A stretch of DNA of 64,000 nucleotides from contig NC_045148.1 in assembly GCF_008831285.2 (NCBI RefSeq), positions 2,294,001-2,358,000 of the forward strand, written 5' to 3'. Each line of letters begins with the position of its first letter. Positions within the stretch are counted from its first letter, which is position 1. The notes beneath the pieces are model-generated. The model was not told the DNA's origin and did not search any database. It saw only the letters and a program-made list of their open reading frames with translations. The stretch is from Nymphaea colorata (taxonomy: Eukaryota; Streptophyta; Magnoliopsida; Nymphaeales; Nymphaeaceae). Below are positions 1 through 49,002 of the stretch, one piece after another. The position numbers and the translations under genes are program-made.

Positions 1-98
1 GCTGCTGATTAACCGATCTCTCTCTCTCTCTAAACCACGCCCGTCTTGAATCTGTTGCATCTCTCTCTCTCTGTCTGTCTCTCTCTCAGAAGTCAGGG

Positions 99-6451: not shown

Positions 6452-7200
6452 CGATAGTTGTCCTGCAAACACTGGTAAGCTTCTAAACACTGCTGATTCA
6501 TTTGTTTTAGCTTTTTTTCATAGTTATCAGGAATTGCCTTTCTGAAGATTTGTTTGGCCACTTCTGATTTATTTCCTGCTTCTCCAAATATCATCACCTA
6601 TTATAATGTGATGTTTTTCAAAGGAGCATTTGTTTCTCTGTTGCACTTATCGCATCCATGACCCCTGTATTTAACCGTGGCTAACATTTCGTTGGAATGT
6701 ACATGGGGCAATATGTAGGAGGATTCGCTCCATCATGTTGGTGTTTCATGGTGATGAAATCGTCTGGTCCCCGAGCTTGGTACTGCTACCGAAGAGCGTG
6801 AAGAAATACACTGGTGCAGCAGCAGGAAGTTGGTAACCAGTGTAGCTTATGGCTCAGTGGAACGAATCCTGGTCGATTCATCATAAAGCTTTGATCACTT
6901 GGGGATGGGCATCATGTGGGGAGAAGGATGGTCACGTCTAGTCGAGCTTGGTGTTGGACTCTATCCTCTTTGCAGGATCTCTCCTTTATGTAGTTTGGTT
7001 TGCTAGCTTGTCCTGTATCCATTTGGTTAAAATAGACTGTTTGAAACCAATGTCCTGGGGGTTTTGAAGTCCAGATGAATGGAAAATTGCACATTGAGGT
7101 GCGTTGAAAAAGTTGCAACTGGCTGAAAAGCAAGTGGCTTCAGATAAATAACGGGGGTATATTGGTGGCGACTTGTTTTGTTTGTAAGAATCCTGGAAAA
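6452..7200 (+). other. TAF12 3' UTR with a probable UTR intron
   Basis: After the TGA at 6449-6451 a good donor (CTG|GTAAGC, GT at 6475) and an acceptor (ATATGTAG, exon resuming at 6719) suggest an intron in the 3' UTR. No coding potential is seen downstream. The end of the transcript is not determined. Confidence 0.4.
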
Positions 7201-9820: not shown

Positions 9821-9822
9821 TT

Positions 9823-9960
9823 GATGACCAAGCCAGGGAAGACATCACCTGGGTCTAGGATATGTGATCTTGATGACCAAGCCAGGGAAGACATCACCTG
9901 GGTCTAGGATATGTGATCTTGATGACCAAGCCAGGGAAGACATCATCCGGGTCTTGGATG
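9823..9960 (-). repeat. 49-bp tandem repeat, three copies, overlapping the LysM gene 3' end
   Basis: The motif GATGACCAAGCCAGGGAAG begins at 9823, 9872 and 9921, an exact 49-bp period. The first two units are almost identical (GACATCACCTGGGTCTAGGA). The third, inside the conserved LysM coding region, differs (CATCATCCGGGTCTTGGATG). Because 49 is not a multiple of three, the expansion shifts the reading frame of the gene read on the minus strand. Confidence 0.95.
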
Positions 9961-25555: not shown

Positions 25556-25843
25556 CAGAAAATTGTGAAAACGTACAAAACAGTGCCTTGTCCATTGGCC
25601 GAGTCCTTGTCTTCATCTGAACGGAAGAAGGGCGGCTTGAAGAAAGGCAGCAAAAGATTGCTTTTGGAAGATCATTGCGGCATACAGCGTCTGATCAAAT
25701 TTCAGCAGTTGACCTCTTCAGATTGCGCGGAGCGATTTGCGCGAGCGTTATGATCTACCATAAGTCATAAAATTAATTATTGGACTACTCTGATGTGCCT
25801 TCATTGGACCCCAAAACAGTGTCGTTGTCTCCTTCTTGCTCCC

Positions 25844-25852
25844 TTTAAATAC
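25844..25852 (+). promoter_or_regulatory. TATA-like TTTAAATAC upstream of GDSL gene 2
   Basis: Sits 79 bp before the start codon in CTCCCTTTAAATACAG, identical in sequence and spacing to the site before GDSL gene 3. Confidence 0.45.
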
Positions 25853-25930
25853 AGTCTGCATTTGCTTTAGAGACCACCCAGCAATCTCCGTCTCTCTATA
25901 AATCTGTGGTAGCGAAGCGGTAACGCAACA

Positions 25931-28900
25931 ATGGCTGCAGGACCATCGATAGGCTTATTCGTGATATTCTCTCTTTTGGGTAATTGTTCTATTTCTTTTT
26001 AGCTACCTTTCATGATAGTTCCAGGTGTGGGTTATATGTGGGCAACTGCACCACTTGTTTGCATGGACCTCGAAAGCCTTTTTATTTTTATATTGTTATT
26101 TTTGAGCAATTTTTTTCATTTGGTGCTGGTTAAAATTTTAAATTTTTATACCTAATGCCCTTGGCTAGAATAGAATTGGGTTGCGACTGACCACTTATTT
26201 TCAATGGTGTTGAAATAAGGTTTTGAGCTTTGGATTTGCGACGCAGATTTTTCCTTTAATCCTGGACTGTAGATGGTAGTAACACATTCACTTCTCATCA
26301 ATGCTTACATATAACACCTTGTTCCAACACTTACACTGGAACAAAACTTATTTCATTATTAATGCGTCCTTCACTTGAGGTGTTACCGCTTGGTGAATAA
26401 TTGAGACGTAGTTGTTAAGTTTGTAAATTGCAGGACTTAGAAACTGACCCGTGAATCTAAGCTGGACTAGAAACTATGATTCATCCTTTTTAGCGTTTCC
26501 GGACTGTGCATATAAGCAGCTTCCGTCTGCCCTGACTGGACATTTGGTACAACTTGAGAGCTTCTTTTTTTTTGACTTAGCAAACTGAAGCTTGCTTGTT
26601 TCATCACAGTTGTAGGTATCAAAGCGGAGAATCTGCAGACTGCTCGGAGTTTGAAAAGCTTAGAACACAGAAGGCTATTCGTGTTCGGTGATTCCTTTGC
26701 AGACACCGGAAATAAACAGAATCCTAATGAACCATACTATTCTTTGAGAAAACCCTACGGTGAGACATATCCGTTGTACCCCACCGGTCGATGGTCCGAC
26801 GGTAAAGTCATGACCGACTTTGTAGGTATGCTTCTGCAACTCGGTTGTTTTCCGTTTCATCCTTGACACTGGTCACTTTTTTCTCTTTGGGTATCTGAGG
26901 AATAATCTAATGGAATCGAATACCAATTCACTGTTGGATTCTGGATCTGTCCGACACCAGAGAAGTTAAATTTCTGTGATTTGTTCAGAATTCCATCAAT
27001 ACAGATGTTGACATCGTATACATATGTATATATTTCAAAGAACTTAGTTCATTGTTAGATCAGTTTATTTGGATGTGTATATAATAATTTGTAGTCTAAC
27101 ATGTTAGAAATTTTAGTTAGATTTCCATTACGTTGAAAGAAGAAACAAAACTCTAAAAGAAGCAATGCCGCATGTGCAGCTACGTACATGGATCTGATTT
27201 CTCCGGTTCCATACACCAAGAGAAATGACTCTATTCTGCTTCAAAAGTATGGCATGAACTTTGCCTATGGAGGAACCGGCGTCTTCGATACGTTCACAGG
27301 CCTCCCGGACATGACACAGCAAATCGACGCGTTCGAACAGCTGATCAACAGTGGGCTCTATGCTGACCATCTGGATTCCTCCGTTGCTCTCGTTTCTTAT
27401 GCAGGCAACGATTACAGAGTTTATCTAGAAAACAATGGCTCCCTCGCGGTAACTACTAACAATATATTTCCTTATTTTCTTCTACTTAGATTCCATTTTT
27501 CTTGTTTTTACATAGAAAAGAGCAAGTTAAACAGAACCCAACTTGATGCATTAGCGGAAGCGGAGTCTTCATCCTGTAACAAGATTGATCAGATCCAACT
27601 ATCTTATTAGGGGTACAAACAGTTCACATTCAAATTGCACATGAGACCAAGTTCAAATCGATTAGTTGAATGTTGTGCCTGCCTAGCTTGGAATTATGTA
27701 AAAGTTGTGGCGTGGATTATGCAATCGTTTGGAGATTCCCATTTCAATTGGAATCTAACTATGAGAAAAATATATTGGTTTCGGTTTAGAAACTCAAGTT
27801 TCAAATGGATAAAGCATAATCTGAACCATGGTCCCTGGCAAATAAAAAAAAATGCAATACATGGATGAGCACTAACCATTTAACTAATAAAGATACAATG
27901 GCACAAAAGTCAGGGCCTCATGCTTTATACATGTCAATCCCTAGTTTCTTTATATATATATATATGTATATATATATATTTGTTAAGGAATTTATAATAC
28001 ATGAAAAGAGGGGGAAAGAGAGAGAAGAATTGGTCTACTTCGCCTACACAACGCCTCCAATCCCAAGATCAACACTTCTCGATATCAAGTTTGGAAATGG
28101 AAGACGTGTAGGAATTTGATCCTTTCAAGTGTTAGGGGTCTTGCATTTTGAAGTCTTTCACATGAGTTCAACTCCTGCCCAACATGGCCAAGTTGATGTT
28201 AATCGTTTTTGCTTGATTCCGCAGGGTCTCGGTGCCTTCAGGCAGCAAGTAGTGCAGCAGCTCACAGCAAATCTGCAGAGGCTGCACAATCTGGGCGTGA
28301 AGAGGGTGGCCGTGACAAACCTGCAGCCCATAGGCTGCAGTCCAACCGTGACATATTCGACCAACTTCACTCAGTGCTCTTCACTCTACAACGGTCTCTC
28401 TCAGCTGCACAACCAACTGCTCAACGCCTCCGTTCAAGCCCTCAGCCCGCCGGTTGTCATTCTTGACAACTACAACGCTTTCTTGACTGTGCTTCAACAA
28501 GGTCCGTGTTAGTCACTATATCTATTGCGTTCATGTGTACACTCTAGCAAACTTCTTTGGGTTATTAATGATGGTACGAAGAAAATAAACTATACATGCC
28601 AAAACAAATTAAAACCAATCATGTCCTTCATTGTAGAAAAGTTAGCGGTAGGCTTGTCTATTGAAGTTTGCTAGACGGTCCACACATATATTTGATTGTA
28701 CATATATTTGATTCACACCAAATGAGAAGGTACATGCTTATATGTAATACATGACATATAGGCCCACTACATAGCTTTTTAGCAATCAAACGTGGGTGTT
28801 GATGTAGTTGACGATTTGTTCTGCTCGATTGCTTCAGAGACGTTTGGGAACAGATTGAAGGCATGTTGCATGGGCGTGAACATCGCAGTTTGGTGCGGCA

Positions 28901-29046
28901 CAGTAGACGGCAGCGAGAACAAGCAGTACACGCTCTGCCCCCTCCCGTGGATTACCTTCTGGTGGGACAACAACCACCCCAGCCACTTTGCCTGGAAGGC
29001 CGTAGTCGAGTACCACCGCCCCAGCCTCGACCAGCTGCTGTCCTGA
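25931..29046 (+). CDS. GDSL esterase/lipase 2, intact
   Basis: Exons 25931-25979, 26610-26825, 27180-27448, 28225-28501 and 28838-29046 give 339 codons with intron phases 1,1,0,1, the same as gene 1. The leader is MAAGPSIGLFVIFSLLG. Block I is LFVFGDSFADTGNKQNP with Ser about 45. The Gly block is FAYGGTGVFDTFTGLPDMTQ. Block III is SYAGNDYRVY. Block V is WWDNNHPSHFAWKAV with Asp about 315 and His about 318. All catalytic residues are present and no frame problem is seen. It is probably a secreted hydrolase of the plant GDSL family; the substrate cannot be deduced. It is the functional partner of the broken third copy. Confidence 0.93.
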
Positions 29047-31563
29047 ATCCAAATTATGCACAACTAATGTATAATAAAGTTGTTGACTCTAATAAATGCA
29101 TCCGTCAACAATTGAACTCGCGTCTTGTAGAATAAATGGCGGCCTTGTGTACCTCTTGGTCGTGTTCAATGGATAACGTTGAATTTCCTTTGAATAAATC
29201 GCTTTACTTGCTTAATATGTGCATACCATCTTATGGAGGATTAAATTTTTTGAGTTAAATTCATTAACTGGGTTGAACCTCCATGAAACTTTCAGCTCAT
29301 ACGTTCGGTATGGACCATATAGCTCAATGAAGCGTGCAGAGAATTTTTCTGAATCCCATAAATTAATAACGAGGTATCCTACCAAAAAGTTGGGGCATGT
29401 ATATCTTAAAATTATTTGCCATAGAAGTGATAGCTTTTAACGGGGAAGCTTTTCTCGTTTTCGATTCATGAGATCAATTGTCAATCAAAGTTGAAATAGA
29501 TTATTGACATTGTAGCGTGTAACATAATTCATCAAGCTTTTTTTTTTATTCAATCGTATCAATCTCAAGTAAGGGGTATTTGATAGACGGGTGTATTTCT
29601 TCTGTAGAAATGTTTCCTGCTATACGGCGGTGGAAGTTTCATTGTAGATGAGCCGGAGCTCAGTGCACCAACAGATCTTGGAAATGTTGCGAGCAGGAAA
29701 TCTTCTCTTGACATAAGTTTCATCATTTGAAGTGTGGTAAATGTTTGAAATCTTTTATCGTGCTCCAAAAGGGGATTATTGACATACAAACTGAAGCACT
29801 ACAACGATAACACTACGAAGCACTGATATCCGTGTCTTATACTATGAAGTATAAAGGGTTGGAGGGCTTCTGCATTCTTTTGAGTGGTGGAAAACCCACT
29901 CACCCAAAAAAGGTATACTTAAAAAATTTCGGCTGCCCATAAAACGCTCAATTAGACAAACCCATAATGCTAGCTACCTAAAACTGAACTTTTAGTTGAA
30001 TTGTGGATCGTCACTGAGTGTTAGGATCTATGTTAATGCAAAGTTGGTTATATCCAACGCCCGGTGCATAAGAAATTGTATCCCATAGTCAGTAAAACGG
30101 AGAGCCCCATATAATAACAAATAAAAGGCAGTGAAAAGCTAAAAAAAAAAAAAAACATTTCTTTTGAAAAAATTTTCAAAATACCCCAACTTTTTTTTTT
30201 TTGAGCTGTTGTATGTTGCACCCTCCCAGTCTCCAATCAATGGGTTCTTTCTATTGACACTGGTGTATCCAGGGGCCAAGGGAGGGGGGGCCGCCTAGGC
30301 CGTGGCCCCACCCTAGTTGACTAAAAAAAAAAATTACATTAAAAAATTTAAAAATCATTAGTTGTCTAACTTATTTTCAGTCGAACTACCATTTGGCTCG
30401 GTTGAACGAATGTTTAGCCTGCCCTTGAAAAAAATCTTGGCTCCGCTTCAAGAGCATTAGTTCTAACGGGTTATGTGCACATGGAAAATTGTACAGAAGT
30501 GTGAAATAACCAAAATACCCGCATCATTAAAAAAAAAAAAAATGAGTAAAAAAGGATTATAAAAAAAGTAGAAAGTTTGATTCCAAAGTCTCGCTCTTCA
30601 TTGTACACTAAGTCACCCGAACTCTTCTATTTTACTGCATCACTCGAGTCGCATCGAGTCGGCTGCACTCCGGTCACAGCTCCGACTCACAACCGAACCC
30701 AATTACAATGTCATATTGCTAAATTACTTATATAATATATGTTGTTTTGATATTTTTCTATGCAATACAATTATTCAAGTATGTTATATACATTTATAAC
30801 TAAAGTGTAATAATAATATATACATGTTTATTTTGTTATATATATAATAAATTAAAAAATAATAATAATAAAATACTCTCGCCACACCACCCCACCCCAC
30901 CCCACCTAAATTTTTTGGAATGTGTTGGCACCGGCACCCCACACTAAGGTGACATCTAACAAGGGAAAGAAAAAAGAAATCTCGTCTATTCTTTCTCCCC
31001 TCTTCCGCGTTCTCTTCATTTCCTCTGGTGGGTTCGACCCCATGACATGACTTAATAGTTATCCTAAATTTAACGATTGAAGTAAGGGAAGACCAGCATA
31101 AGACTAGCTAAAATTCTTCTTATATACATATAAAAATGACCCTCATGGTCCACTTAATTAAAAATTTACAGTTATGAGCCGTTATTAAAATATTCCAACC
31201 TCGCTGCGGAAAATTGTTGTGAGAGGAAGTAGCATGGTGTCTCGAAAGTTACAAATACCCATTTGACGAAAGTTACCAAATACGCATTTGACGAGAAGAT
31301 CGACGGCACTAATCCATTGGCCGAGTCCTTGTCTTCATCGGAAAGGCGGCATGAAGGAAGGCAGCAAAGATTGCTTTTGGTTTTGGAAGATTATTGAAGG
31401 CATACAGCATCTGATCAAATTTCAGCAGTTGACCTCTTCAGATTGCGGGGAGCGATTTGCGCAAGCGCTATGATCTACTATAAGTCGTAAATTAATTATT
31501 GGACTACTCTGACGTGCCTTCATTAGGACCCCAAAATGGTGTCGTTGTCTCCTTCTTGCTCCC

Positions 31564-31572
31564 TTTAAATAC
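31564..31572 (+). promoter_or_regulatory. TATA-like TTTAAATAC upstream of GDSL pseudogene 3
   Basis: Same sequence and position as in gene 2, 80 bp before the ATG, so the promoter was duplicated with the gene. Confidence 0.45.
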
Positions 31573-33635
31573 AGCCCTGCATTTGCTTTAGAGACCACCC
31601 AGCAATCTCCGTCTCTCTCTGAATCTGTGGTAGCGAAGCGGTAGCGCAACAATGGCAGCAGCACCATCGACAGGTTTATTCGTGATATTCTCTCTTTTGG
31701 GTAATTATTCTATTTCTTTCTAGCCACTTTCATGATAATTTCAAGATAGTTCTAGGTGTGGATTATGTGTGGGCAATTGCTTATATGGACCACTTGTTTG
31801 CATGGAACTCAAAAAACTTTTTATTTTTATATTGTTATTTTTGAGCAAATTTTTTTCATTTGGTGCCGCTTAAAATTTTAAAATTTTATACCTAATACCC
31901 TTAGCTGGAATTTTCTAACAAGTTAGCTAAGCACTGGGTTGCGACTGACCACTTATTTTTTGGATTTGTGCTTCCTCTATGACGCAGATTTTTGCTTTCA
32001 AAGGTCATCATGGACTGTAGATGATAGTAACACATTCAATTATCATCAATGCTTACATACAACACCTTGTTCCAACACTTACTGGAACATAATTTATTTC
32101 ATTATTAATGCGTCCTTCACTTTGAGGGTTTTGTCGCTTGATGAATAATTGAGAAATAGTTGTTATGCTTGTAAATTGCGGGACTTAGAAACTGATCCGT
32201 GAATCTAAGCTGGACTAGAAACTATGGTTCATCCTTTTTAGCGTTTCCGGACTGTTTTGGTAAAACTTGAGAGCTTCTTTTTATTTGACTTAGCAAACTG
32301 AAGCTTGCTTGTTCCATCACAGTTGCAAGTATCAAAGCGGAGAATCTGCAGACTGGTCAGACTTTGAAAAGCTTAGAACACAGAAGGCTATTCGTGTTTG
32401 GTGATTCCTTTGCCGACACCGGAAATAAACAGAATCCTGATGAACCATACTATTCTTTGAGAAAACCCTACGGTGAGACATATCCTTTGTACCCCACCGG
32501 TCGATGGTCCGACGGTAAAGTCATGACCGACTTTGTAGGTATGCTTTTCCGTTTCATCCTTGGCACTGGTCACTTTTTTCTCTTTGGGTATCTGAGGAAT
32601 AATCTAATGGAATCGAATACCAATTCATTGTTGGGTTCTGGATCTGTCCGACACAGAGAAGTTGAATTTCTGTGATTTGTTCAGAATTCCATCAATACAG
32701 ATGTTGACATCGTATACATATGTATATATTTCCAAGAACTTAGTTCATTGTTAGATCAGTTTATTTGGATGTGTATATATAATTTATTGTCTATACATGT
32801 TAAAAATTTTAGTTAGATTTCCATTACGTTGAAAGAAGAAACAAAACTCTAACAGAAGCAATGCCGCATGTGCAGCTACATACATGGATCTGATTTCTCC
32901 AGTTCCATACACCAAGAGAAATGACTCTATTATGCTTCAACGGTATGGCATGAACTTTGCCTATGGAGGAACCGGCGTCTTCGACACGTTCACAGGCCTC
33001 CCGGAGATAGCAAATCGACGAGTTCGAACGGCTGATCAACAGTGGGCTCTATGCCGACCATCTGGATTCCTCCGTTGCTCTCGTTTCTTATGCAGGCAAC
33101 GACTATAGAGTTTATCGAGGAACCAATGGCTCCCTCGCGGTAGCTACTAACAATATATTTCCTCATTTCTTTTGTTTTGATTATATTTTTCTTTTCTTTT
33201 TTACATTAAAAAGAGTAAGTTAAACAGGCCCCAACTTGAAGCATTAGGAGAAGCGGAGTCTTTAATCTGTAACAAGATTAATTAGATCCAACTACCTTAT
33301 TAGGGGCATAAACAGTTCACATTCAAATTGCATATGAGACCAAGTTCAAATCGATTAGTTGAATGTTGCGCCTGCCCACCTAAGAATCATGTAAAAGCTG
33401 GGGCGTGGATTATGCAATCTTTTGAAGATTCCCATTTCAATTGGAATCTAACTATGAGAAAATATATTGGTTTCGGTTTAGAAACTCAAGTTTCAAATTG
33501 GCAAGGCATAATCTGAACCATGGTCCCTGCCAAATAAAATAAATGCATTACATGTATGAGTACTAAACATTTAACTAATAAAGATATATAATAAAAATCA
33601 AGGTCTCATGTTTTATAAATGTAAATCCCTAGTTT

Positions 33636-33638
<3 letters not shown>

Positions 33639-33692
<54 letters not shown>
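33639..33692 (+). repeat. (CA)n(TA)n compound microsatellite
   Basis: A run of CA followed directly by TA within intron 3 of the third GDSL copy; gene 2 has only a shorter TA run at the matching place (about 27952-27980). Confidence 0.92.
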
Positions 33693-33693
<1 letters not shown>

Positions 33694-34482
33694 TGAGAGA
33701 GAGAAGAAGAATTGGTCCACTTGGCCTGCACTGCATCTCTAATCCCATTATCAACATTTCTCACCATCAAGTTTGGAACGGAAGACGTGTAGGAATTTGA
33801 TCCTTTTAAGTGTTAGGGGTCTTGTATTTTCAGGTCTTTCACGTGAGTTCAACTCCTGCCGGAACATGGGCAAGTTGATGTTAATCGTTGTTGCTTGATT
33901 CCGCAGGGTCTCGATGCCCTCAGGCCGAAAGTAGTGCAGCACCTCACAGCAAATCTGCAGAGGCTGCACAATCTGGGCGTGAAGAGGGTGTCCGTGACAA
34001 ACCTGCAGCCCATAGGCTGCAGTCCAACCCTGACATATTCGACCAACTTCACTCAATGCTCTTCACTCTACAATGGTCTCTCTCAGCTGCACAACCAACT
34101 GCTCAACGCCTCCGTTCAAGCCCTCAGCCCTCCGGTGGCCATTCTTGACAACTACAACGCTTTCTTGACTGTGCTTCAACAAGGTCCGTGTATGTCTCTA
34201 TATCTACTGCATTCATGAGTACACTCTAGCAAACTTCTTTGCGTTATTAATGATGGCACAAAGAAAATAAACTATCCATGCCAAAACGACATTAAAGTCA
34301 ATCAATCATGTTGTTCATTGAAGAAAAGTTAGCGGTAGGCTTGTCTATTGAAGCTTGCTAGAGGGTCCAACAGATCTTTTAAAAGCTTCTAAGGGTCCAC
34401 ACATATATTTGATTTTACATATATTTGATTCACACCAAATGAGATGGTACATGCCTATATGTAATACATGTGATATAGGCCC

Positions 34483-35147
34483 TCAAGCACGGGTGTTTGT
34501 TATAGTTGTTTTCCAAAAAAAAAATGCTTCAATAACAATAAAACATGCCAAACCAACTAATATGATAGTCGGACATGCACAAAACTGCTGAAAATCAGAA
34601 TCCCAGAATTGTGAGCATAAGATCGAGTTTTCAATATCAATGTTGCAGCAGTATATATCAAAATATATGCTAAATATTACAGAAAACAAGAGACCGCCGT
34701 GAAAAAACCCTAAATAATGAGGTAAAAAACCACGGTCAAGAGAGACTTTCTATATATCAAGAAAAAGAGTCAAATACACCTGCAGCAATATCTCTACTAT
34801 TTTAAGAAAAACAGTAAAGTCAAGAAAACAATAACACTCTCTTATACGAATGAAAGAAAGAACCCCAAAGAAACAAGAAATAGAACACCCAATGAAGACT
34901 CCCTTCATTTTCTTTTTCTTCTTTGTCTTTCCTCTATCTTCTTGGCGTGCGGATCAACCCACTCAACCTTGCTGCTATTTTTCCTTCTTCTTCTTTTTGC
35001 CTTCGTCTTCTCCTTCTCCTCTTGTTGCGTGCAGCCACAAGAAGCCTCCTCTTTTCTTTTTCTCAAAAAAAACACGTGCAAGAGAGAGAAACGTGAGAGA
35101 GAAGGGCACCATCAGGTACTCTCTTGAAGCTGGACCGGACCCAATAG
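34483..35147 (-). mobile_element. Probable copia LTR fragment inserted in intron 4 of GDSL copy 3
   Basis: The matching intron of gene 2 goes straight from ATATAGGCCC to GTGTTGATG, but here about 660 bp intervene. On the minus strand the insert contains GACCGTGGTTTTTTACCTC, TTTAGGGTTTTTTCACG, a pattern I associate with the 3' part of plant copia LTRs, and a GA-rich transcript-leader-like region. No clear target-site duplication was identified. Confidence 0.55.
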
Positions 35148-36521
35148 TGTTGATGGTGTAGTTGACGATTAGCTGTGCTTGATTGTTTTAGAGACGTTTG
35201 GGAACAGATTGAAGGCATGCTGCATGGGCGTGAACATCACGGTTTGGTGCGGCACAGTGGACGGCAGCGGGAACAAGCAGTACACTCTCTGCCCCCTCCC
35301 GTGGACTACCTTCTGGTGGGACAGCTGCCACCCCAGCCACTTTGCCTGGAAGGCCTTAATAGAGTACCACCGCCCCAGCCTCGACCAGCTGCTGGCCTGA
35401 ATCCAGGTTATGCACAACTTATGTATAATGACGTAGTTGAGTCTACTAGATGCATTCGTCAAGAATTGAACTCGCATCTTGCCTTGTGTACCTCTTGGTC
35501 CTATGGAGTCTATGGACCATATAGCTCAATGGAGCCTGCAGAGAATTTTTTTGAGTCCGTAAATTAATAACGAGTTATCCCATCAAAAAAGTTGGGGCAT
35601 GTATATCTTAAAATTGATCGCGATTGAAGAGATGATCTTTGTTTTTGTCGTTTTCGATTCATGAGATCAATTATCAATGAAACTTGAAATAGATTGTTGA
35701 CATTGTAGCATGTAACTCAATTCATCAAGCCTCTGTTAGTCGTATTAGTCTCAATTAGGGGGCGTTTGGGAGAAGGGAGTTTTTCTTCTGTTGAAATGTT
35801 TCCTGCTAAACGGCGGTGGTTGAAGTTTTAGACGAGCCGGACCTCAGTCCACCAAGGGAAAAGTTGAGAACAGAAAATCTTGTCTTGAAATAAGTTTCAT
35901 CGTTTGAATTATGGTAAATGCTTAAAATCTTTTCTTATGTTGCAAAAGAGGGTCACTGAAGCATAAGCTTTGGAACACCGAAATCTGGTTCTATACTATA
36001 AAAGACTATAAAGGATAAGGGGTTCCTAGGGGCTTCGGCTTCTTTTGAGTGGTGGAAAACCCACCTCACCCAAAAAATGTATGCCGAAAAAATTTCGGCT
36101 GCCCGTAAACCCCTCCATTAGACAAACCCATAATGCTAGCTACCTAAAACTGAACTTTTAGTTGAATTTTAGATCAAGTCAGTGAGTGTTAGGATCTATA
36201 TCAATGCAAAGTTGGTTATATCGAACGCCCTGTGCATAAGAAATTGTATAATGGGATGTAATGATCCAAATACCCCTAGTCAGTAAAAAGGAGAGCTCAC
36301 AATAATAACAATTAAAAGGTAGTGAAAACTTAGAAGTAAAAAAAAAAAAACATTTCTTTACAAAAATTATCAAAATACCCCATCTTTTTCTTCTTCCCAT
36401 TTTTTTCCTTTGCACATGTACCCTGGTGCACAACAAGTCACTCTCCCATCAATGGGTTCTTTCTATTGGCTAGACCTTCTCTCACTGGTGTATGGTTCTT
36501 ATTGTGCTAAAAGTTTTTACT

Positions 36522-36657
36522 CAACTTTTTGCTGTTTGAAGTAGAAATCCAAGAGCATCTAGTTCTATTCAAAACGGGATTTGCACAGTCAACTTTTTGC
36601 TGTTTGAAGTCCAAATCCAAGAGCATCTAGTTTTATTCAAAACGGGTTATGTGCACA
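36522..36657 (+). repeat. 68-bp tandem duplication
   Basis: TCAACTTTTTGCTGTTTGAA starts at about 36522 and again at 36590. The units end with TTCAAAACGGG(A/T)T. Present in duplication copy B only. Confidence 0.85.
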
Positions 36658-37494
36658 CGTTTGAACAGGAAAAATTGTGCACAGAAATGTGCAATAACCA
36701 AAATACCCCATCAGTAAAAAATTAAAATGAAGGATTTAAAAAATAGAAAGTTTGATTTCAAAATTTTGTAAATACCCAAAACCCCTTTCATTTTTTCTTT
36801 AGTGTATACTTGTCCTTGCACTCAACTCCATCTCGATCTCTGTTGGATGTCAATTAGGCTTATTACTGTTATTTAGTAAAACGTCAATTTCTAACAAAGA
36901 GCGGCCCCCTTTCATGGTTTCTAGTAAAAACCACGTTCGTGATTCCAATGGTCCAAATTCTAGAGGAAGAATTCTTTGTTGGTAAGAAAAACGGAGGCCA
37001 CATTTATTAGCCAATGTATGACTGTTCCTTTGTGTCGATTGCCAAATTTCTCCCCCCTTCCGCGTTCTCTTCATTTCCTTTGGTGGGTTCAACGCATGAC
37101 ATGACTTAATAGTATTACTTATATCTATCCTAAATTCATAATGGTTCAGGAAGTAGCATGGTGTCTCGTGTTCTTGATGCGCTGTTTGGGAGCAGTAATA
37201 GTGTATTATTGTTTCATGCATTTGGGCCAAAAACCTGGATAGATTTATGGAATATTTTTTAAAGTGTCCAATGCCTCTAAACCAGATGCTTTGATGTTAC
37301 ACTCCTCAAAAGACCTTTGAGAGATTAATGCACTCATTCTTCACCCTTTGTTGTGCTGTCCAATGAACAATTAATGGTCCTAACAGTCTAAGTGTACTCA
37401 AGATCCTCATGTTGTTCATGCATGCTTTTGACTAAAGAATTCATTGTAGAAAGGACGCACTCTATGCACATTAACAGTCTATAATGCAGGAAAG

Positions 37495-40400
37495 TTTAAA
37501 GTGTTACACTGTTAAATTGTGTTATGGTGTTGTAATGTTATATAGTATTATGATGTTATAAAGAGTTGTGTAATGTTATAGTGTTATTGTGTGATAGTGT
37601 TATACATCGTGATATTGTGTCATCGGGTTAGATAGTAATATAGTGTTATATGTTGTTATAGTGTTATACAATGTTATATTGCGTTATAGTCTTATATAGT
37701 GCTACATAGTTTTGTAGTGTCATATGTAATGTTATAGTGTCATGTCGTGTACAATACTGTTATAGTGTTATATAATGTTATAGTGTTACATAGTGTAATA
37801 GTGTTTTAGTGTAATAGTGTTATAAAGTAATATTGTGTTATAGCGTTACAGTGTTATATTGTGTTATATGGTGTCATGGGGTGATATAGCATTATATAAT
37901 GTTATATGGTGTTATATTGTGTCATAAAGTTATATAGTGTTCCATATTGTTATATAGACTTATATAGAGCTATATAGTGTTACATAATGTTGTATAGTGT
38001 TATATGGTATTAGATAGTCTTATAGAGTGTTAATGTGCAATATAGTGTTATATATTGTTATATAGCGTAGTAGTGTTATATTATGTCATAGTGATATATC
38101 GTGTTGTGTTGTTAGAGTGTTATAGTGTTATAGAGTTATATAATTGTATATAGTGATATTGTGTTATAGTGTTATTTAGTGTTGTAGTGTTATATAGTGT
38201 TGTATTTTTATAGGGTATTATAGTATTATGTACTGTTATGTAGTGTAACATAGTGTTTTATAGTGTTATAGTGTTACATAGTGTTATAGTGTTATTCTAT
38301 TATATAGTATTATCTTGTTATATTGTGTTATAGTGATATATTTTATTACAGTATTATATAACGTTATATAGTGTTTTTAATATTATATAGTGTTATAAGG
38401 TTAAGTGGTGTTACACTGTTATATAGTGTTAGAATGTGTTGTAGTGTTATATAGTGTTATCGTATTATGTGGTGTTATAAAAGTATGTAGTGTGATAGCG
38501 TTAGATAGTGATATTGAGTTGCAGCATTACATAGTATTGTATTGTGTTATAATGTTATAATGTGTCATGTAATATCATAATGTAGCAGCGTTATAGTGTT
38601 ATATAGTGTTATAGTGTTGTACAACATTATATAATAATATAGTATTATAGTGTTATATAATGTTATATTGAGTTATATAGTGTTACATAATGTTATATAG
38701 TGTCATTTTGTTATAGTGCTATAGTGTTATAGAGCTGTAGGCTTAATTTTATAGTGTCGTATAGTATTATATAGTGTTATAGTCTTATATAGTACCACAA
38801 TATTATATAGTGTTGTATAATGCTATAGTGTTATAGTGTAACAGTGTTATAGTGTTATTGTGTTATATATTGCTATATAGTGTTAGTGTTATAGTGTTAT
38901 TTAGTGTAATTGTATTATCTTGTTATATGTTGTTATACTGTTATAATGTAATGTTATATAGTGTTATAATATTGTTGTGTTATATATTACTGTAGTGTTA
39001 TATAATGTAATGTGGTGTTATATAGTGTTATATGTTATCGTATGGTTTATATAGTGTTATATAGTGTAGTAGTGTTATAGTGTAATATAGTGTCAGTGTT
39101 ATATAGCGTTAGTGTTATATAGTGTTATCATGTTTTTTAATGTTTTACAGCGCTATAGTTTTGTCGTGTTATATAGTGTTACAGAGTTACACTGTTACAT
39201 AATGTTATAGTATTATAGTGTTACATTGTTATATAGTGTTATAGTATTATATATTGTTATATAGTGTTATATTGTTTACAGTGTAATAGTGTTATAGTGT
39301 TATATATTGTTATAGTGTTATATAGTCTTATATAGTGTTATAGTGTTATAATTTTACAACTACTTACATAGTGTTATGTTGCTATATAGTGTTATAGTGT
39401 TATATAGTGTTGTAGTATTTATTATTTAGTGTTATAGAGTTATATAGTGTTACAGTGTTGTATAGTGTTATTGTGCTATAATATTATAGTGTCATATAAT
39501 GTTATCTGGTTATATGGTGTTATAATAATATATGATATTATACTGTATAGCGTTATATAGTGCTATATTGTTATATAGTATTATAGTGTTATATAATGTT
39601 ACATAGTTTTATTGTGTTATGTGGTGTTATCGTGTTATATATGGTTATAATATTGTATAGTATTGTAGTGTCATTGGGTTATATACTGTTATAGTATCCT
39701 GTTGTATTATAGAGTTATATGGTGTTATAGTGTTTTATTATGTTGTATAGTATTACAGTGTCATATATAATGTTATGTAGTTTTATATAGTTATATAGTG
39801 TTATAGAGTTATATAATGTTATTTATAGTTAAAATGTTATCGTGTTATATATTATTATAGTGATATATAATTTTATGGTGTTATATAGTGTTTTAGTGTT
39901 AGTGTTATACCATGTTATAGTGTGATAGTGTTAGTGTTATTGTTATATCATGTTATAGTGTGATAGTGTTATAGTGTTAGTGTTATATAATGTTATAATG
40001 TTAGAATGTTATATCATTATATAGTGCTCTAATATTATATGGTGTTACATAGTGTTATAGTGTTATAATGTCATATAGTGTTTTGTAATGTATTCGTGTT
40101 ATAGTGTTGTAGTGTTGTAGTGTTATAGTGCGCTATAGTGTTATATAGTGTTATTGCATTATAGTGTTATATTATGTTATATAGTCATATGGTCTTAGTT
40201 TTATATATTGCTATAGTGTTATACTATATTACATAGTGTTATATAATGTTACAATATTATACAATGTAATTTTGTGTTATAGTGTGATAGTTTTGTATAG
40301 TATCATAGTGTTATGTAGTGTTACAGTATTACATTGTAATATTGTGTTATGTAGTGTTACATAGTGTTACTGTATTATATAATGTTACATATAATTATAG

Positions 40401-42946
40401 TTTCATATTATAGTGTTGTAGCGTTATATAGGGTTATATAATCTTATAGTGTTATATAGTATTGTAGTGTTATAATGTTTTATATGGTTATATATTGTTA
40501 TACAGTGTTATATGACATTATATAGAGTTATATAGTGTTATTATGTTATAGTGTGATAGTATTATTGTGTAATATAGTACTACATTGTTATAACGTTATA
40601 TAGTGTTATAAGTTGTATATCGTTATACTATTATATGGTATTATATAGTGCTATATAGAGTTATAGTATTATTGTGTTATATAGTTTTATATTGGCTTAT
40701 ATTGCTATACAGTCTGTTATCGTGTTCTATTGTCTTATAGTGTTATAGTGTTGCAAGATTATAATGCTATATATTGTTATAGTGTTGCAAGTTTATAGTG
40801 TTATAATGTTATAAAGTGTTATAATGTTGTATAGTGTTAGACAATGTTGTATTGTTATAGTCTTATATAGTGTTAGATAATGTCATAGTGTTTTAGTGTT
40901 ATATAGTATTATAGTGTTGTAGTGTTATAGTGATATAGAGTGTTATATATTGTTACAACGTTATAATGTAATAGTGTTTCATGGCGTTATAGTATTATAT
41001 ATTGTAATATATTGTTATAATGATATATAGAATTATACTATTATTTAGTTTTGCTGTGTTATAGTGTCATGTAGTGTTGTGATATTACAGTGTTATAGTA
41101 TTTCATAGACTTAAATAGTGTCATAGTGTTATATAGTGTTATATTTTGATAATAATATATTGTTATAGAATTATAGTGTTATATCGTGTGATAGTATGAT
41201 ATATTGTTATATAGTGTTATACTGTTAGATAATACTATGCAGTTTATCATATTGTTTTATTGTGTTGTAAAGTTTTATAATGTTATAATGTTAGATGGAG
41301 TAATACTGTGCTATCTAATGTTACATAGTGTTATGTAGTGTTATATGGTGTTATATAATTTTGTATAGTATTATTGTGTTATAGTGTTTTTTTGTTATAG
41401 TATTATAATATTATATAGTATCATAGTGTTATATAATGTAACAACATTATCATGTTATACGGTGTTGTCATCTTATATAGTGTTACAATGTTATAGTTTA
41501 ATAATGTTATAGTGTCATATGGTATTGTAGTATTATATAGTGTTATAAGGTGTTATAGTGTTGTAGGGTTATATGGTGTTTTAGTGGTATATATTGTTAT
41601 ATAGTGTTATCGTGTTATACAGATTTATAGTGTTTTTTTTATTGTAGTATTATAATATTATATAGTATCATAGTGTTATATAGTGTAACAACATTATCAT
41701 GTTATATGGTGTTGTCATCTTACATAGTGTTACAGTGTTATAGTTTAATAATGTTATAATGTCATATGGTATTATAGTATTATATATTGTCATAGTGTTA
41801 TGTAATAGTATAGTGTTATATAGTGTTATAGTATTATACAATGCCATATTATATTTTATTGTTATATAGTGTTATAGTATTATGTTGTGTCATAGTGTTA
41901 TGCAATGTCGTAGTGTTACATAGTGTTATATCGTGTTATAGTGTTATAGTGCTATATAGTGTTATATGGTGTCATAGTGTTATATAAAGTTATATACTTA
42001 CAGTATTATAGTCTTATAGTTCTATATAGTGTTATGTATAATATGGTGTTATAGTGTTATACAACATTATATAGTGTTGTATTGAGTTATATAGTATTAA
42101 TATAATGTTATAGTGTTATGGGGTTATATATCGCCACATAGTGTTGGAGTGTTATAGTGTTATATGGTCTCATATAGTGTAATTGTGTTATCTTATTATA
42201 TAGTGCTATATTGTTATAGTGTAACATTATATAGTGTTATAATGTTATATAGTGTCATGGTTCAGTACACTTTATATAGTATTATAATGTTATAGTGTTA
42301 TCTAGTGTTATAAATTATTATACGTTGTGATATATCTTAATAGTGTTATATAGTGTCAGTTGTATATTGTTAATGTGTTATCGTGTTATTTAGTGTTGTA
42401 TAACACTATAGTGCTATCATGTTATATAGTGTTATAGAGTTGAGCTGTTACATAATGTTATTGTGTTATAGTTTAATATAGTGTTATATTGTTATATAGA
42501 ATTATAATATTATATAGTGTTATTTAGTGTTAAATGGTGTTATATAGTCTTATATGGTTTTATCGTGTTATAGAGTAATAGTGTTATAGGGTTATATAGT
42601 GTCATAGTATTAAATAGTCTTTCATAGTTTTATAGTGTTATATGGTGTTTAATGTTATATAGGCTTATATAGTATTATGTTGTTATATAGTGTTATGTGG
42701 TATTATTGTGTCATATAGAGCTATATAGTGTTATAGTGTTATTTGACATTATATAGTCTCATAGTGTTATTTAGTGTTATTGAGTTATATAGTGTCATAG
42801 TGTCAAACTGTGTTATACTGTCATACAGTGTCATTGTGTAATATAGTGTCATATAGTGTTATACTGTTATAGCATTAGATAGTGTAATAATGTATAGTAT
42901 CATATAGTGTTACAGTGTTGGATAGGGTGACATAGTGTTATAGTGT
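37495..42946 (+). repeat. 5.45-kb degenerate satellite of TTATAGTG / TATAGTGTTA words
   Basis: The whole block is built from 8-bp (TTATAGTG) and 10-bp (TATAGTGTTA) words in mixed order with point changes. The plus strand is very poor in C (about two C in each of two 60-base lines I counted), giving a strong G-over-C skew. No open frame of note exists in any frame because TAG and TAA recur in every register. The left edge is gradual (GTGTTACACTGTTAAATTG near 37500). The right edge is sharp, at the codon before CAG TTT ATG of a copia gene fragment. Larger units were duplicated inside it, for example 41386-41545 against 41633-41790. Confidence 0.95.
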
Positions 42947-43510
42947 CAGTTTATGCACGCATCGACAAAAGAACATATGGATGCTACTAAACGTATTTTG
43001 CATTATCTTAAGGTTACTCTTGGGGATGGACTCGTCTACATGAGACAGACAACTGATTTGAATGAACATACCATTTCTACCTATATTGATGCAGATTGTG
43101 CAGGTGATCCAAATGATAGACGATCAATTTTAGGTTATTGTATCTTTGTTAATTTCAATCTTATTTGCTGGAGTAACAAGAAGCAACATGCAGTTGCCAG
43201 ATCGGGCACTGAGGCAGAATATAGAGCAATGACAGCTGGCACAGCTGAAGTTTCATGGTTGCATAATCTTCTTAGGGAACTCTCCCTTCCCATTGCTCAA
43301 TCATCTCTATTTTGTGATAACCAAAATGCAATCTGCCAGATCGAGCACTAAGGCAAAACATAGGGTAATGATGGCCAGTACAGCTGAAGCTTCATGGTTG
43401 CATCATCTTCTTGGGAAACTCTCCCTTCCCATTAAAGTGCGATCAAGATTCCTTTCAATCCTATTCTACATAATCACACTAAGCATATAGAAATTGGTCA
43501 ACACTTCAAG
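42947..43510 (+). mobile_element. Ty1/copia RNase H-region fragment with internal duplication
   Basis: Encodes QFMHASTKEHMDATKRILHY, DADCAGDPNDRRSILGY, SNKKQHAVARSGTEAEYRAM and FCDNQNA in one frame to about 43351, the end of reverse transcriptase and the RNase H region of copia polyproteins. From about 43338 the piece around SGTEAEYRAM...SWLHNLLRELSLP is repeated in decayed form (AGATCGAGCACTAAGGC...). A further stretch (about 43440-43500) resembles the NPxxHxRTKHIEIxxHF tail. No LTR or upstream pol sequence is present; the left side is satellite. Confidence 0.88.
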
Positions 43511-45650
43511 GGTCTCACAGGGCATCATTTATAGGAATTGAAGAACAAGATGTGCATAATCAAACCTCATGCACAACTTGAGTTGAGCTGTTAAAGCCTA
43601 ACTCTTGTTCACCATACGCCACACATAATGGGTCATAGCATACTTGTAATTTTTATTATTGTTTTGGGTATTTACTTGTAACACAAATTAGTATAGAGTA
43701 ATGACAAGGGGCAAGTGCCAAGCCCATGCCCCTCTTTCCTCTCTCCCTTTTTTCTCGAGCAGCCTGTTCCTCTTCTCATCTTCTCGCTCTTCAAAATTTC
43801 AAATTTCATCTAGTGGTTTGGTGTTATACATCAAAATCTTACATTTCCTTTGTATGCCTATGAGAGCAGAGTATTTATCTTTTTCATCATACTTTCTTCC
43901 TACTTCAAACCCACAATTTATGCAATATATTCCAATGCCATGGTCGCCATGGCACTTGTCAAAGAGTTCCATTATGCACTGAAACTGTTGTGGTCTAGAA
44001 CCCTACCAAAATATATCTTCCTCAATCAATCATTTAGCATTTTGAAGTTGCTTAGATGATCATGTCGTTTTGGCGCTGCATTCCATTTTCAATGCTTGCA
44101 TTTTTATTTGTAAAGACATATATAAGTAAATTATAAATATATTAAAAACATTACACGTGAATGGAACAATAAAACACAACAATGTTTTGTAAGCATAATA
44201 ACACACATTCTTTTTTTGAGGCCAGTAACATGAGTGTGATGCTTATCTCCCTTTTCCCTTTTAGTTGCTGACCCTGTAATAACAATCCACTTTACAAGAC
44301 ATAATAAGCAACATATGAAGCTAACAATTACACAAACTAACATACATAAAATTACACTTTTCTCTTTTGATACCTCAAAGTTATCTTATTCAACTCTTTT
44401 CCCTGTTATACAAAATCAATATATATGATATTATGAACCATTATAATGTTGAACTACATTACACGGTCAAAAAGTTGTTCAACTTAACATGGATGCTTCT
44501 TTTATGCTGGATCTCCTCATATTCATCTTCTTCCATCTCCTCTTACTTTTTGCCATCTCATTTTCTCCCTCTATTGACTCTTGCCAGTTCTTCTCCCTCT
44601 GTCGCTCTCTCAACTCCATTATTCAAACTTGCCAATACTTATTCAATGATGCAATATCTACTATATCATCTCATTATATCTCCTCTTGTCTTCTTCCATC
44701 TCGGTCTCCCTATGCCATCTACTTGGCTCCTTTTCTCTTCTCTTCTTTGATCATCTTCTTTGAATCCCCTCTCTAGAGAAACTTCATCTATTTCTTTTCT
44801 TCTTTTCCTTTCCCTTCCTCCCTTGTTTCTGATTACTCTCATGAAGTAAGACAAAATTTACTTATTGCTCTCTTTCATTCTCATCTAGCAATTATTCATT
44901 TTCCAATTGGCTCATTTCTTCTCATCGGCTTTCATCTAGTTCATTATTGTCATTTGTCGAGACTTCTTTACTCCCTCTATCTTCTTCCTTTTCAATCCTT
45001 CTCTATTATCCTTCTCTAGTCCTAGCTCCATCTTTTGCCCATAATAATTTCACTTTCCTCAATTTCATTCACATGAAATGTCTGCTCTCATTCACAGGTC
45101 CATCCTAGGCTTAAATGTTCTCATCTTCATTCTTCTTCTTCTAGAATCCCCTTTTAGGAGCAATAAATTTGTTCAACTTGCTCCAAGGAAAGCACATAGT
45201 TCAAATTACTATAATCTACTTCACATGGAACATGACCAATGTGTATAAGACAGCCTCAAAAGCATTGGGACTCAGCTAATGACAAGTTGCCCTCTTTTTC
45301 AAAGCATAAAAAATAAACCATACTATAAAATGAAAAGTAGGACGATGCCCTCAAATGTTCACTTTTATGAAACTTGGTTTACAAAGTTTTTAATGATATT
45401 CTAAGAACCTGGCCTTTGTGTCTGCTGACATACCCAAAACACAGCTTTTTATGAATAACTTGGGAATGCCAGGTTATTCAATCCCCTTTTGAAAACTAGG
45501 TTAGTTTTTGTCAAAACTTGGTTTTTCTTAAACTGTGTTTGGATGTCACCCAAACACTTCAAAAAACATCATATTAGATTGTCATCCAAATGATCCCTAG
45601 ATGGTAAATCAATTGAAAGCTAGATTGCACAAATAAATATAGATTTAAAT
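43511..45650. other. Gene-poor DNA with pyrimidine-rich tracts
   Basis: No gene recognised. Plus-strand C/T-rich stretches at about 43720-43800 and 44490-45190 (TCTTCTTCCATCTCCTC-like) give short open frames that look like composition effects. They may be parts of a decayed LTR, but no terminal repeats were found. Confidence 0.4.
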
Positions 45651-46240: not shown

Positions 46241-48583
46241 ACAAACAGATTTAAAGAGTGCCCCAAAACAAAAATGGTATATCGACAAGCTACTCGAGTG
46301 TCTGGCAGAAACCTCCGGTTTCACATTGGCAACACCCAAAAGGTGAACACTTCTCATACGATTCTTCAATTTCGATGGTTCACAGTAAGCGTGTGCTGGC
46401 AACAACCAGCCTTGTTTGGCTATGATGGCAGTAATAACAACCAGCCTTGTTTAGCTCTAGCACACTTACAAAGGCACAGTAGGACTATGCCAACAAGCAA
46501 CTGGCATTACACTTGGATCGTCGGATGCTTTGCATACAAAGAGATGTAGTGAACAAATCTGGTCATATGTGTCGTGAGGGCGTTTTATGCATTGTGTGGG
46601 TACTCCCAAGAATCCTTCCTCTAAACTCCGTTCGCTTTCCCAGTCAAATGAAGGGGCACTCGCTTGGCGGAGGGTTCTTAACGTCCTTCGGGTCCTACAC
46701 AAATGTGGGCATTATAATTAACTTGGGGACTGAAGGGGTGTAGAACCTTTTTGTTGCTACATCCCTTTTACATAAAATTTGAAGGCGACAATGAAGTTGT
46801 GACAACTAACGTTGACAAGACTTCAAACATAGTCTGGATTCTTACATTTTGCATCCAAATCTCAATTAGGAAGTATAAGCAATTGCTACTGGTTGTTGCT
46901 CTGGATGAACATGTTTAGAGACAGCCAAAGCCATCACTATTGTTTCAGTGTGCTGTCAAGATCCCGAACCAGCTCTTCATGCCGTAATGAATTACCGAAA
47001 GAAAGATTCCAAATCAACGAATGTGTGGAGGAAAAAGAGGTTAGTTAGGGGATTCTTCCTAGCATTTGGACTAAGAAATTGAAGCATAAAAGAAACTGGG
47101 ACAAATTGATCCAATTCGGATGAAATTGCAATGCAACAAGTCAACCAAGGCGCAGCTCATACACAAGATTAGAAGACCTCCGTACCCGAAATCTCAAACT
47201 TTCTATAGTTAAGTGCAGACTGAAAGACGTGACCATATGCACGACTTGCAACATCAAGTTGTTACTCCAACCAGAGGGAGAGAGCAGTTTTCTTTTCTGA
47301 GACGAGGCGAGAGGAGAACGCGACCGAGTGATGACATGATTCAACGTTCATCACATACCCCTACTTATCCCTTACCACCAGTGGCCGGTGAAAGCACAAG
47401 AAAATAATCACAAAAGGCTGTCTCAAATCATATGATAACAAACACATGCTCGAGGTTTGTCCAACTGCAGTAAACCGGCCAACTTCGGCCGGAATAGGTG
47501 CCTGTTAGTAATGTCATTAAGCTGACACCATTTTCCATGGTCAACCATCAAGACCAGACAACTGTGGACGTGGTAAGTTTTTCATTCTAATGTTCTTCTG
47601 TTTTTATTCTGTCAACACTTCAGAGAAGGAGATCCTGCCAGAATCCATCATCGGGAAAATGAAATGTGGACTCTTTCATGGGGAATTCAACTGAGTACCT
47701 TCGAGGCTGATGAGCAGATGAATAAACCGAAAGCAAGACGAGAAAACAGATCCCTGGTGAAACCAACTTGTACATTTCCTGAGAATCTCCACGTTGTGAC
47801 CTCCCTGTAACAAGTGCTCCTTCAGTTCATAAAACTTTCTTTTCTTCAACTTGGACACTATGTACCTTAAGTCATTAAAAATAAATATATACTAGCAAAA
47901 AATATTCCTAAACAAAATAAACAAATAAATTTCAATAAAACCAAGGTGTAACTGCAATTCCTTTTAGACCTATATGCAGTCGTCATCAAAGGTCCTTTTG
48001 TAGTTTATTTTCCTTACCTAGATAATTACAAGAAAAACTAGAACTGGAGACTACCGCCATGATTAGTTTTAAAGGGTTCCCACTTGCCACTTATAAAAGA
48101 TTAAAGAAAATGAGCTTATAAAATTCTTTCCCTGGGGCCCTAGCCTAGTTAGAAGCTCCAAGTGACTGCATTTGGAAAGAAAAAAAGTGTCTTGGCATTT
48201 AAAAAACCTGCCACATGGCAATGGCCACATTTCCCTCCCAAAATGCCCTTAAGTAACCCACATTTCGCTCGAAAACCTAAGCTGAATGAGAGGTAATATT
48301 GTTGAACGACTATAAGATCAAACATAGTCAAGTGCTTAAGCCATTTGAATCCATAGGCATCAGAAATAAGGCTTAAGCAAGTGAAGTTAAGCTTAAACTC
48401 GCAAGCTTTATAGTTCAGGTGAGCACAAGGAGGCCAAGCACAGGTTAAGCTCAGAACTTGCACGCCCCATTTAGGGGGATCCCTATCCCGCAAGCTTAGC
48501 CTACTCAAGTCAACGTTGTGCTCAAAATAACCAGGATGGTCATATACTGTCCTACTCCAGGAAAAAGTAGTGTCATTAGATGA
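46241..48583. other. Intergenic, no gene recognised
   Basis: Moderate-complexity DNA with a few short frames (for example plus strand 46187-46549) that lack any motif I know. A perfect 6-bp-stem inverted repeat CCGGCCAACTTCGGCCGG is found at about 47476. It lies beyond the 3' end of the FANCD2 gene. Confidence 0.4.
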
Positions 48584-49002
48584 CCAAGAGATGCAGTTTT
48601 TAAACTTCTTACTGTCCTAGCAAGAAAAATTGAAGAAACCCAATTCAAAGGACAATCCTATAAAAGGTTTGCAAAATATAACCTTCTCAAGCCAGAGGAC
48701 TTCAATGTTGTGACACAGGAGATGACAACGGCATACTATGTTTCCTGACACCCCTGGCTGCCTACATCTTCAGAAAATCAACAATGACCATTGCTGCAAA
48801 TCAAGAACCAAGAGATGCAGTTTTTAAACTTTTTACTGTTCTAGAAAGAAAAATTGAAGAAACCCAATTCAAAGGACAATCCTATAAAAGGTTTGCAAAA
48901 TATAACCTTCTCAAGCCAGAGGACTTCAATGTTGTGTCACGGGAGATAACAACGACATACTATGTTTCCTGCAACCCCTGGCTGCCTCTTACATCTTCAG
49001 AA
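48584..49002 (+). repeat. 224-bp-offset tandem duplication of the FANCD2 3' end
   Basis: The block starting CCAAGAGATGCAGTTTTTAA at 48584 recurs at 48808 and runs to the ACATCTTCAGAA phrase (48776 and 49002). The right copy contains the last codons and the stop of FANCD2. The left copy has a decayed version of the same codons. Confidence 0.92.

Follow-up and report, generated by a model that had tools for sequence, protein, structure and literature searches.

A dispersed family of minisatellites with two monomer lengths in the genome of Nymphaea colorata

Introduction

Plant minisatellites, as defined in the available text of a study that covers sugar beet (PMC2820488), have monomers of 6-100 bp and form arrays of 0.5 kb to several kb that are dispersed over the chromosomes; classical plant satellites, in the same text, form megabase arrays of 160-180 or 320-370-bp monomers. 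The beet minisatellites described there come in arrays of variable size dispersed along most chromosomes and include BvMSat01, with the 10-bp AT-rich monomer AACTTATTGG, a GC content of 34% and monomer identity of 40-100%, and BvMSat05, with a 21-bp monomer and head-to-head junctions. More generally, according to the abstract of a review (PMC8122249), the units of most satellites are either of nucleosome size or 5-10 bp long. The subject of the present work is a degenerate array of 8-bp TATAGTGT and 10-bp TATATAGTGT units at positions 37497..42952 (+ strand) of the window, a stretch of 64,000 nucleotides of the Nymphaea colorata genome (C11:2294001-2358000, in an assembly of 407,766,735 bases and 783 contigs).

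The family to which this array belongs falls among the AT-rich minisatellites that are dispersed in plant genomes, as in sugar beet: the units are of 8/10 bp, 10 of the 17 loci are longer than 0.5 kb (the other seven are shorter) and the loci lie on 10 contigs, all in line with the definition of the plant minisatellite. The initial annotation spoke of a satellite and gave the usual plant units as 100-400 bp or 1-6 bp, which overlooks the class of 6-100-bp minisatellites as delineated in the part of PMC2820488 referred to here; with ~46 kb of 8/10-bp units scattered over at least 17 loci, a classical plant satellite is not supported. The resemblance to BvMSat01 and BvMSat05, as far as these are described in that text, includes short AT-rich monomers, a wide range of identity and dispersed arrays and, for BvMSat05, head-to-head junctions. 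Unlike BvMSat01 as presented there, the family has a different monomer sequence, two fixed lengths in one register and a tiny share of the genome (~0.011%). No repeat made of the consensus words, including TATAGTGTTATA, came up in the open PMC library searched, where the matches were unrelated by title. What is less usual is that the units come in two fixed lengths, that odd-length indels are modestly depleted and that borders look like breakpoints. On balance, we favor the view that the block in the window belongs to an old family of non-coding, AT-rich minisatellites, dispersed in the genome and with monomers of two fixed lengths, and that this family was spread by copying of worn pieces.

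The array in the window

Global tiling of positions 37495-42946 with a model of four units (TAGTGT, TATAGTGT, TATATAGTGT and TATATATAGTGT) yields 610 units, among them 297 of 8 bp, 284 of 10 bp and eight of 12 bp, with 82.8% identity to the consensus and 14 single-base skips; local tiling delimits the array at 37497-42952, with 611 units and an identity of 0.827, and 6-bp units number 21-22 by tiling. The tiling score is 3534, compared with 620-686 in five mononucleotide shuffles, and the extent of 37495-42946 originally assigned to the block was right to within a few bases (homology to a copia element, discussed below, starts at 42946). The autocorrelation check proposed in the initial annotation gives values of 0.560 at lag 8 (z +29), 0.554 at lag 10 (z +35) and 0.571 at lag 18 (z +33), far above the 0.343-0.344 obtained at these lags in the reference set of 50 dinucleotide-preserving shuffles, and the signal persists at lags 28 (0.500, z +21) and 36 (0.500, z +22). 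Tandem Repeats Finder (TRF) reports periods of 8, 10, 18 and 28, among others, and the most frequent spacings of the 181 GTGTTA words in the array are all even (18, 10, 8, 28 and 36), with few odd ones.

The base counts of positions 37495-42946 are T 2569, A 1574, G 1051 and C 258, so that the description of one strand as almost free of C applies to the consensus, which contains no C, and not to the array itself, with its 4.7% of C. The excess of G over C is confirmed, with a GC skew of 0.51 to 0.66 across the 1-kb windows of 38001-43000. The scan of the window array detected no minus-strand pieces inside it. An internal tandem duplication of 247 bp (41387-41633 and 41634-41880, that is, 41387..41880 on the + strand; 85% identical, with the best 100 bp at 96%) is also reported by TRF. 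There is no tandem pair of TTTAGGG or CCCTAAA in the window, and a telomere or telomere-like repeat is rejected for want of tandem units of the TTTAGGG type.

Two monomer lengths in a single register

The tandem 8- and 10-bp words noted initially are real; in a corrected wording, TATAGTGT and TATATAGTGT lie in one common register, with the monomers equal to (TA)2(GT)2 and (TA)3(GT)2. Neighboring units differ in length (8 versus 10) in 59% of the cases, a value reached in none of 2000 permutations, and this alternation beyond chance is consistent with an 18-bp double unit. In simulations with 8/10-bp units only and 15 odd indels, tiling generates 9-15 false 6-bp units and 6-12 false 12-bp units, so that the eight observed 12-bp units do not exceed the level of tiling artefacts and the 22 6-bp units exceed it by ~10. 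Because the counts of 6- and 12-bp units are near those of simulated artefacts, the true unit lengths are essentially two, and free slippage of TA as the origin of the unit lengths is rejected. The same mix of 8- and 10-bp units, with a mean unit of 8.7-9.2 bp, was found in 16 array pieces compared across the genome; the alternation is above expectation by at least 0.03 in 13 of the 16 pieces and by 0.02 in pieces C3 and C6c, and is below it in piece C6b.

The lengths of the units could, in principle, be held by a protein or a chromatin state that reads the 8/10-bp register while the bases drift. The window array contains 939 substitutions against the consensus and only 14 odd-length skips; tiling detects most single-base indels (14-20 skips for 20 inserted ones in simulation), and at this detection rate the 14 skips correspond to ~15-17 odd indels. 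Duplicated non-array DNA of the same genome, counted with the arrays masked, shows 61 odd gaps per 761 substitutions, 31 of them away from homopolymers. With 16 odd indels per 940 substitutions taken as the estimate for the array, the deficit is about five-fold (Fisher p 2.8e-9) or, away from homopolymers, 2.4-fold (p 0.0045), which, together with the artefact-level 12-bp units and the excess of ~10 6-bp units, speaks in favor of such a spacing constraint. However, in three copied pairs of arrays, six of the 13 gaps are odd, per ~104 substitutions, which is nearer to the neutral ratio (p 0.02, with 13 gaps only), so that present-day maintenance of the register is not evident; the ~2.4-fold deficit that remains may reflect homogenization during growth, and there is no clear helical phasing (see below). 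A spacing constraint thus seems rather improbable, and we would, with low confidence, attribute the deficit to homogenization while the arrays grew, not to present constraint.

A family of worn, dispersed arrays

The search of the genome for the array word suggested in the initial annotation recovers the same word genome-wide: the exact 16-mer of the consensus is present in 139 places (43 forward and 96 reverse) and a 17-mer in 48 places, these 48 all on contigs C1-C11, whereas the reversed control gives 0 and 1 in each case. The local tiling model was then applied to stretches around the word places. Among the 100 of the 139 16-mer places that were listed, this reveals at least 17 loci with arrays on 10 of the contigs C1-C11, with none on C5, a count to which loci containing only unlisted 16-mers may add. 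The loci are located (in Mb) at C1:1.764, C2:10.300, C3:4.811, C3:12.884, C4:0.367-0.378, C4:25.239, C6:12.888, C6:15.307, C6:19.834, C7:3.275, C7:3.283, C8:10.375, C9:1.404, C10:2.257, C10:7.590 and C11:0.505-0.531, in addition to the window array. The arrays range from 42 bp to ~18.5 kb (the largest, with a retroelement discounted) and sum up to ~46 kb, or 0.011% of the 408-Mb assembly. The identity to the consensus is mostly 0.80-0.90 per arm, reaching 0.95 in the 42-bp array and dropping to 0.70/0.80, on overlapping strands, in a tangled stretch on C4; the C4 and C11:0.5 arrays were read piecewise, and C4 ~372.5-375.5 kb is partly known from word places only. The reversed-window control of the tiling scan gives one segment, with a score of 31, so that the three tiniest arrays retained as loci (scores 37, 49.5 and 55) rest mainly on their exact 16-mer. 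L051, at C4:524 kb, also gave a tandem signal, with overlapping strands that score 62.5 and 43.5; it was dropped for its low identity, 0.71, even though it outscores these three.

The departures from the consensus carry information on the history of the arrays. The C3:4.811 and C6:19.834 arrays share a segment of 533/524 bp with 88% identity, in which 49 non-consensus bases are the same, 21 and 12 are private and two are different; for C3 and C6:15.307, 36 are common, 19 and 16 private and two different. The two blocks at C11:0.505-0.514 and 0.521-0.531, which are one array split by a gypsy-type long terminal repeat (LTR) element, have 69 non-consensus bases in common, 165 private and six different. 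In the window and C4 arrays, a pair without special kinship, 24 are common, 71 and 67 private and 15 different. Because most departures from the consensus are common to both copies, the C3 and C6 arrays must have been already worn when they were copied. Beyond the arrays, the two C6 loci have 1.7 kb of left flank in common (95%) and one C7 locus is a duplicate of the other; apart from these pairs and the C11 block, the likeness of flanks between loci is limited to a gypsy stretch of 69% identity (L010-L045) and 123 bp at 80% (L012-L048). Long AT-rich arrays of low complexity are often misassembled, but the presence of at least 17 loci with mostly unrelated flanks and private substitutions makes an assembly or sequencing artefact extremely unlikely.

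Borders of the arrays and contacts with retroelements

To the left of the window array, 795 bp have a single near-complete paralog, C11:474021-474807 (91%), which is colinear up to the border at 37494..37497 and then continues with neither the array nor the copia element; past this point, the paralog is near-unique (13 matches, 12 of them short). The region C11:452-460 kb, considered as a duplicate of the left flank, proved unrelated, the paralog being located at 474 kb. Within the left flank, ~100 bp of window positions ~37170-37290 match many dispersed places at 73-81% and are perhaps a small dispersed repeat.

On the right, the array meets a remnant of a copia retrotransposon (42946..43844, + strand, with homology traceable to ~43844) that, at the edge of the array, is truncated within its coding region; the copia label comes from reading of the frame, and Pfam gave no match. 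Homology to copia begins at the junction, 42946..42952, in all five aligned copies, and the sequence of these copies upstream of the point matching 42946 has no match to the left of the window array; in one copy (L057), the open frame continues across this point. The copia family has at least 94 matches in the genome, with 40 of the 444 candidates scored. The few bases common to the array and copia at the join could have arisen as in microhomology joining. Inside the remnant, a 100-bp piece (43195-43294) recurs 139 bp further on (43334-43433) with 85% identity.

Both borders of the window array thus look like breakpoints. At C6:19.83 (L045), the array ends at 2596 and the sequence from 2597 on matches the gypsy RNase H region of L010 with 69% identity, which hints, more weakly than in the window, at a breakpoint of the same kind; the left flank of L050 is single-copy and uninformative on the border.

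The largest array of the family presents a different type of contact. The element at C11:513943-521452 (L010 and L011), within this array, is a young gypsy-type LTR element with LTRs of 2454 bp (513943-516396 and 518999-521452) that are 99.7% identical (seven mismatches, no gaps), gypsy-type RNase H and integrase between them, and the same five array bases at both outer sides, that is, a 5-bp duplication.

Orientation of the arrays and the case for a mobile element

By scan, five of the 17 loci contain both orientations and 12 a single one. Head-to-head arms are found at C1, C2 and C6:15.3, with spacers of at most 8 bp, and at C3:4.81, with 680 bp between the arms; the C4 array changes strand several times. 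As single-stranded DNA, the three head-to-head junctions examined fold with z of -5.1, -3.3 and -4.9, and four stretches of the window array with z of -0.8, -0.5, -0.6 and -2.2.

Such arms are compatible with a mobile element, either of the fold-back type with short-repeat arms or another carrier, that contains the arrays as its interior and has spread them by transposition. The C1 flanks, which contain inverted repeats of 243 bp (99.6%) and 114 bp (91%), also point in this direction, as do the direct repeats on both sides of the arrays at C8:10.375 (102 bp, 89%; L048:893-994 and 1529-1628) and C2 (138 bp, 84%). However, when 13 loci were compared, 11 had no inverted flank repeats, L047 had just a 35-bp match and C1 alone had long ones; flanks are rarely common to different loci, no common termini or target-site duplications are obvious by eye at the printed array borders, and single-orientation loci predominate. 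The flank-repeat comparison leads us to reject the array as the inner part of one common transposon, and spread by transposition in general appears unlikely. Around the C1 array, near-identical (99%) direct and inverted repeats are present at L007:1343-1585, 2832-2991 and 6442-6843.

Potential functions of the array

Two functional effects had been suggested in the initial annotation, namely, DNA bending or nucleosome phasing through a 10-bp spacing of TA steps and R-loop promotion through the G-over-C skew, and neither is supported by the analysis. The power of TA steps in 147-bp windows of the array is 1.01, 0.77, 0.64 and 0.58 at 10, 10.2, 10.4 and 10.6 bp, respectively, compared with 0.80, 0.75, 0.75 and 0.79 in the flanks, that is, slightly higher at 10 bp, about equal at 10.2 bp and lower at 10.4-10.6 bp. 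The actual peak in the array is at 9 bp (2.6 versus 0.88 in the flanks), which is not a helical repeat. There is, then, no phasing at 10.2-10.6 bp, and a nucleosome-phasing or bending repeat, for which a periodicity of 10-10.6 bp over 147 bp would be expected, is rejected.

A G-skewed array that forms R-loops when transcribed is likewise very unlikely: the skew itself would be favorable, but runs of GGG are rarer than in the flanks (2.0 versus 6.9 per kb) and the RNA:DNA hybrid of the + strand is less stable relative to the duplex (+0.085 kcal/mol per step, compared with -0.017 to +0.038 in 20 flank windows). An R-loop-prone skewed repeat, with G clusters and a stable hybrid, is therefore rejected, with the reservation that the hybrid and stacking energies depend on the nearest-neighbor values adopted. 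With these values, duplex stacking is weaker in the array than in the flanks (-1.086 versus -1.288 per step). Most likely, the array has no host function; its appearance is that of common scattered repeat DNA, and not of a device for bending DNA or trapping RNA.

Neighboring features

The region to the left of the array, 25591..37494 (+ strand), consists of duplicated modules with GDSL-lipase pieces, and its portion paralogous to C11:474-476 kb, in inverted orientation, ends at the array. Modules 25591-28765 and 31313-34482 are 86% identical over 3.2 kb; further duplicated modules are 16718-18369 and 28796-30256/35147-36468, and GDSL-lipase pieces occur in the set as a whole. These pieces and the retroelements are in keeping with plant DNA. 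Window positions 1-5609 are 97-98% identical to C11:490-496 kb, inverted. Among the window frames outside the array that were scanned, Pfam recognized GDSL lipase only, and a search of a phage collection, of little use for plant DNA, gave no match. Two other short tandem repeats of the window are a 224-bp unit at 48583-49002 (1.9 copies, 93%) and a 49-bp unit at 9815-9959 (three copies, 95%).

Next to the C6:15.3 Mb array (L008), at a distance of ~1 kb, there is a frame with a dUTPase domain (Pfam E 1.5e-22) and a second frame without a Pfam match (3305-3547 and 3885-4451, - strand). Together, these frames resemble what we take to be a remnant of an endogenous pararetrovirus, a candidate only.

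Origin and spread of the arrays

Under the view favored here, copying of worn pieces of an old minisatellite, unequal exchange or slippage, involving single units as well as multi-unit blocks, probably enlarged and shuffled the arrays, and worn pieces would then have been copied elsewhere, probably during double-strand break repair. In the window, this would have brought the array up against a truncated retroelement on one side and the terminus of a duplicated block on the other; the head-to-head inversions could be explained by fold-back priming, given that TATA strands are self-complementary. The main effect of the array would be that of a stretch prone to melting, which donates and receives DNA in repair. 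Several points weigh against this scenario. Breakage, repair and fold-back priming are steps that we infer; an empty site with both flanks joined was not found in this genome; the left border could be the mere end of a segmental duplication; borders that resemble breakpoints are known only for the window array and, more weakly, for one other locus; and the retroelement at C11:0.51 Mb is an ordinary clean insertion into an array.

A bolder version holds that the family keeps its 8/10-bp register as the bases wear and that the arrays are natural breakage sites that receive truncated retroelements and donate array pieces. From the clean insertion on C11, it follows that a retroelement at an array is not in itself a sign of breakage, which lowers the odds of this version, and we regard it as conceivable but doubtful. 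Human AT-rich fragile-site minisatellites such as FRA16B are long, melt-prone arrays; here, the monomers are of 8/10 bp and it is only the borders that suggest fragility. In plants, the (TA)n tracts beside endogenous florendoviruses are a further point of comparison, TA-rich tracts being discussed, in the available part of PMC4241990, as fragile places repaired with filler DNA. The Nymphaea array resembles these, as described there, in being a TA-rich repeat in contact with foreign DNA, here a retroelement remnant at the border, and the family also has the dUTPase-domain frame near the L008 array; the Nymphaea array differs in being a GT-interrupted minisatellite, unlike the plain (TA)n microsatellites with viral inserts.

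If natural breakage sites are indeed what the arrays are, they would preserve, in the genome of a plant, visible traces of repair at fragile sites. Should the borders be repair junctions, the family would offer ~17 places in one genome in which to ask whether TA-rich minisatellites break and capture fragments of retroelements; if not, the family is small and ordinary, and worth cataloguing lest it be mistaken for a functional element.

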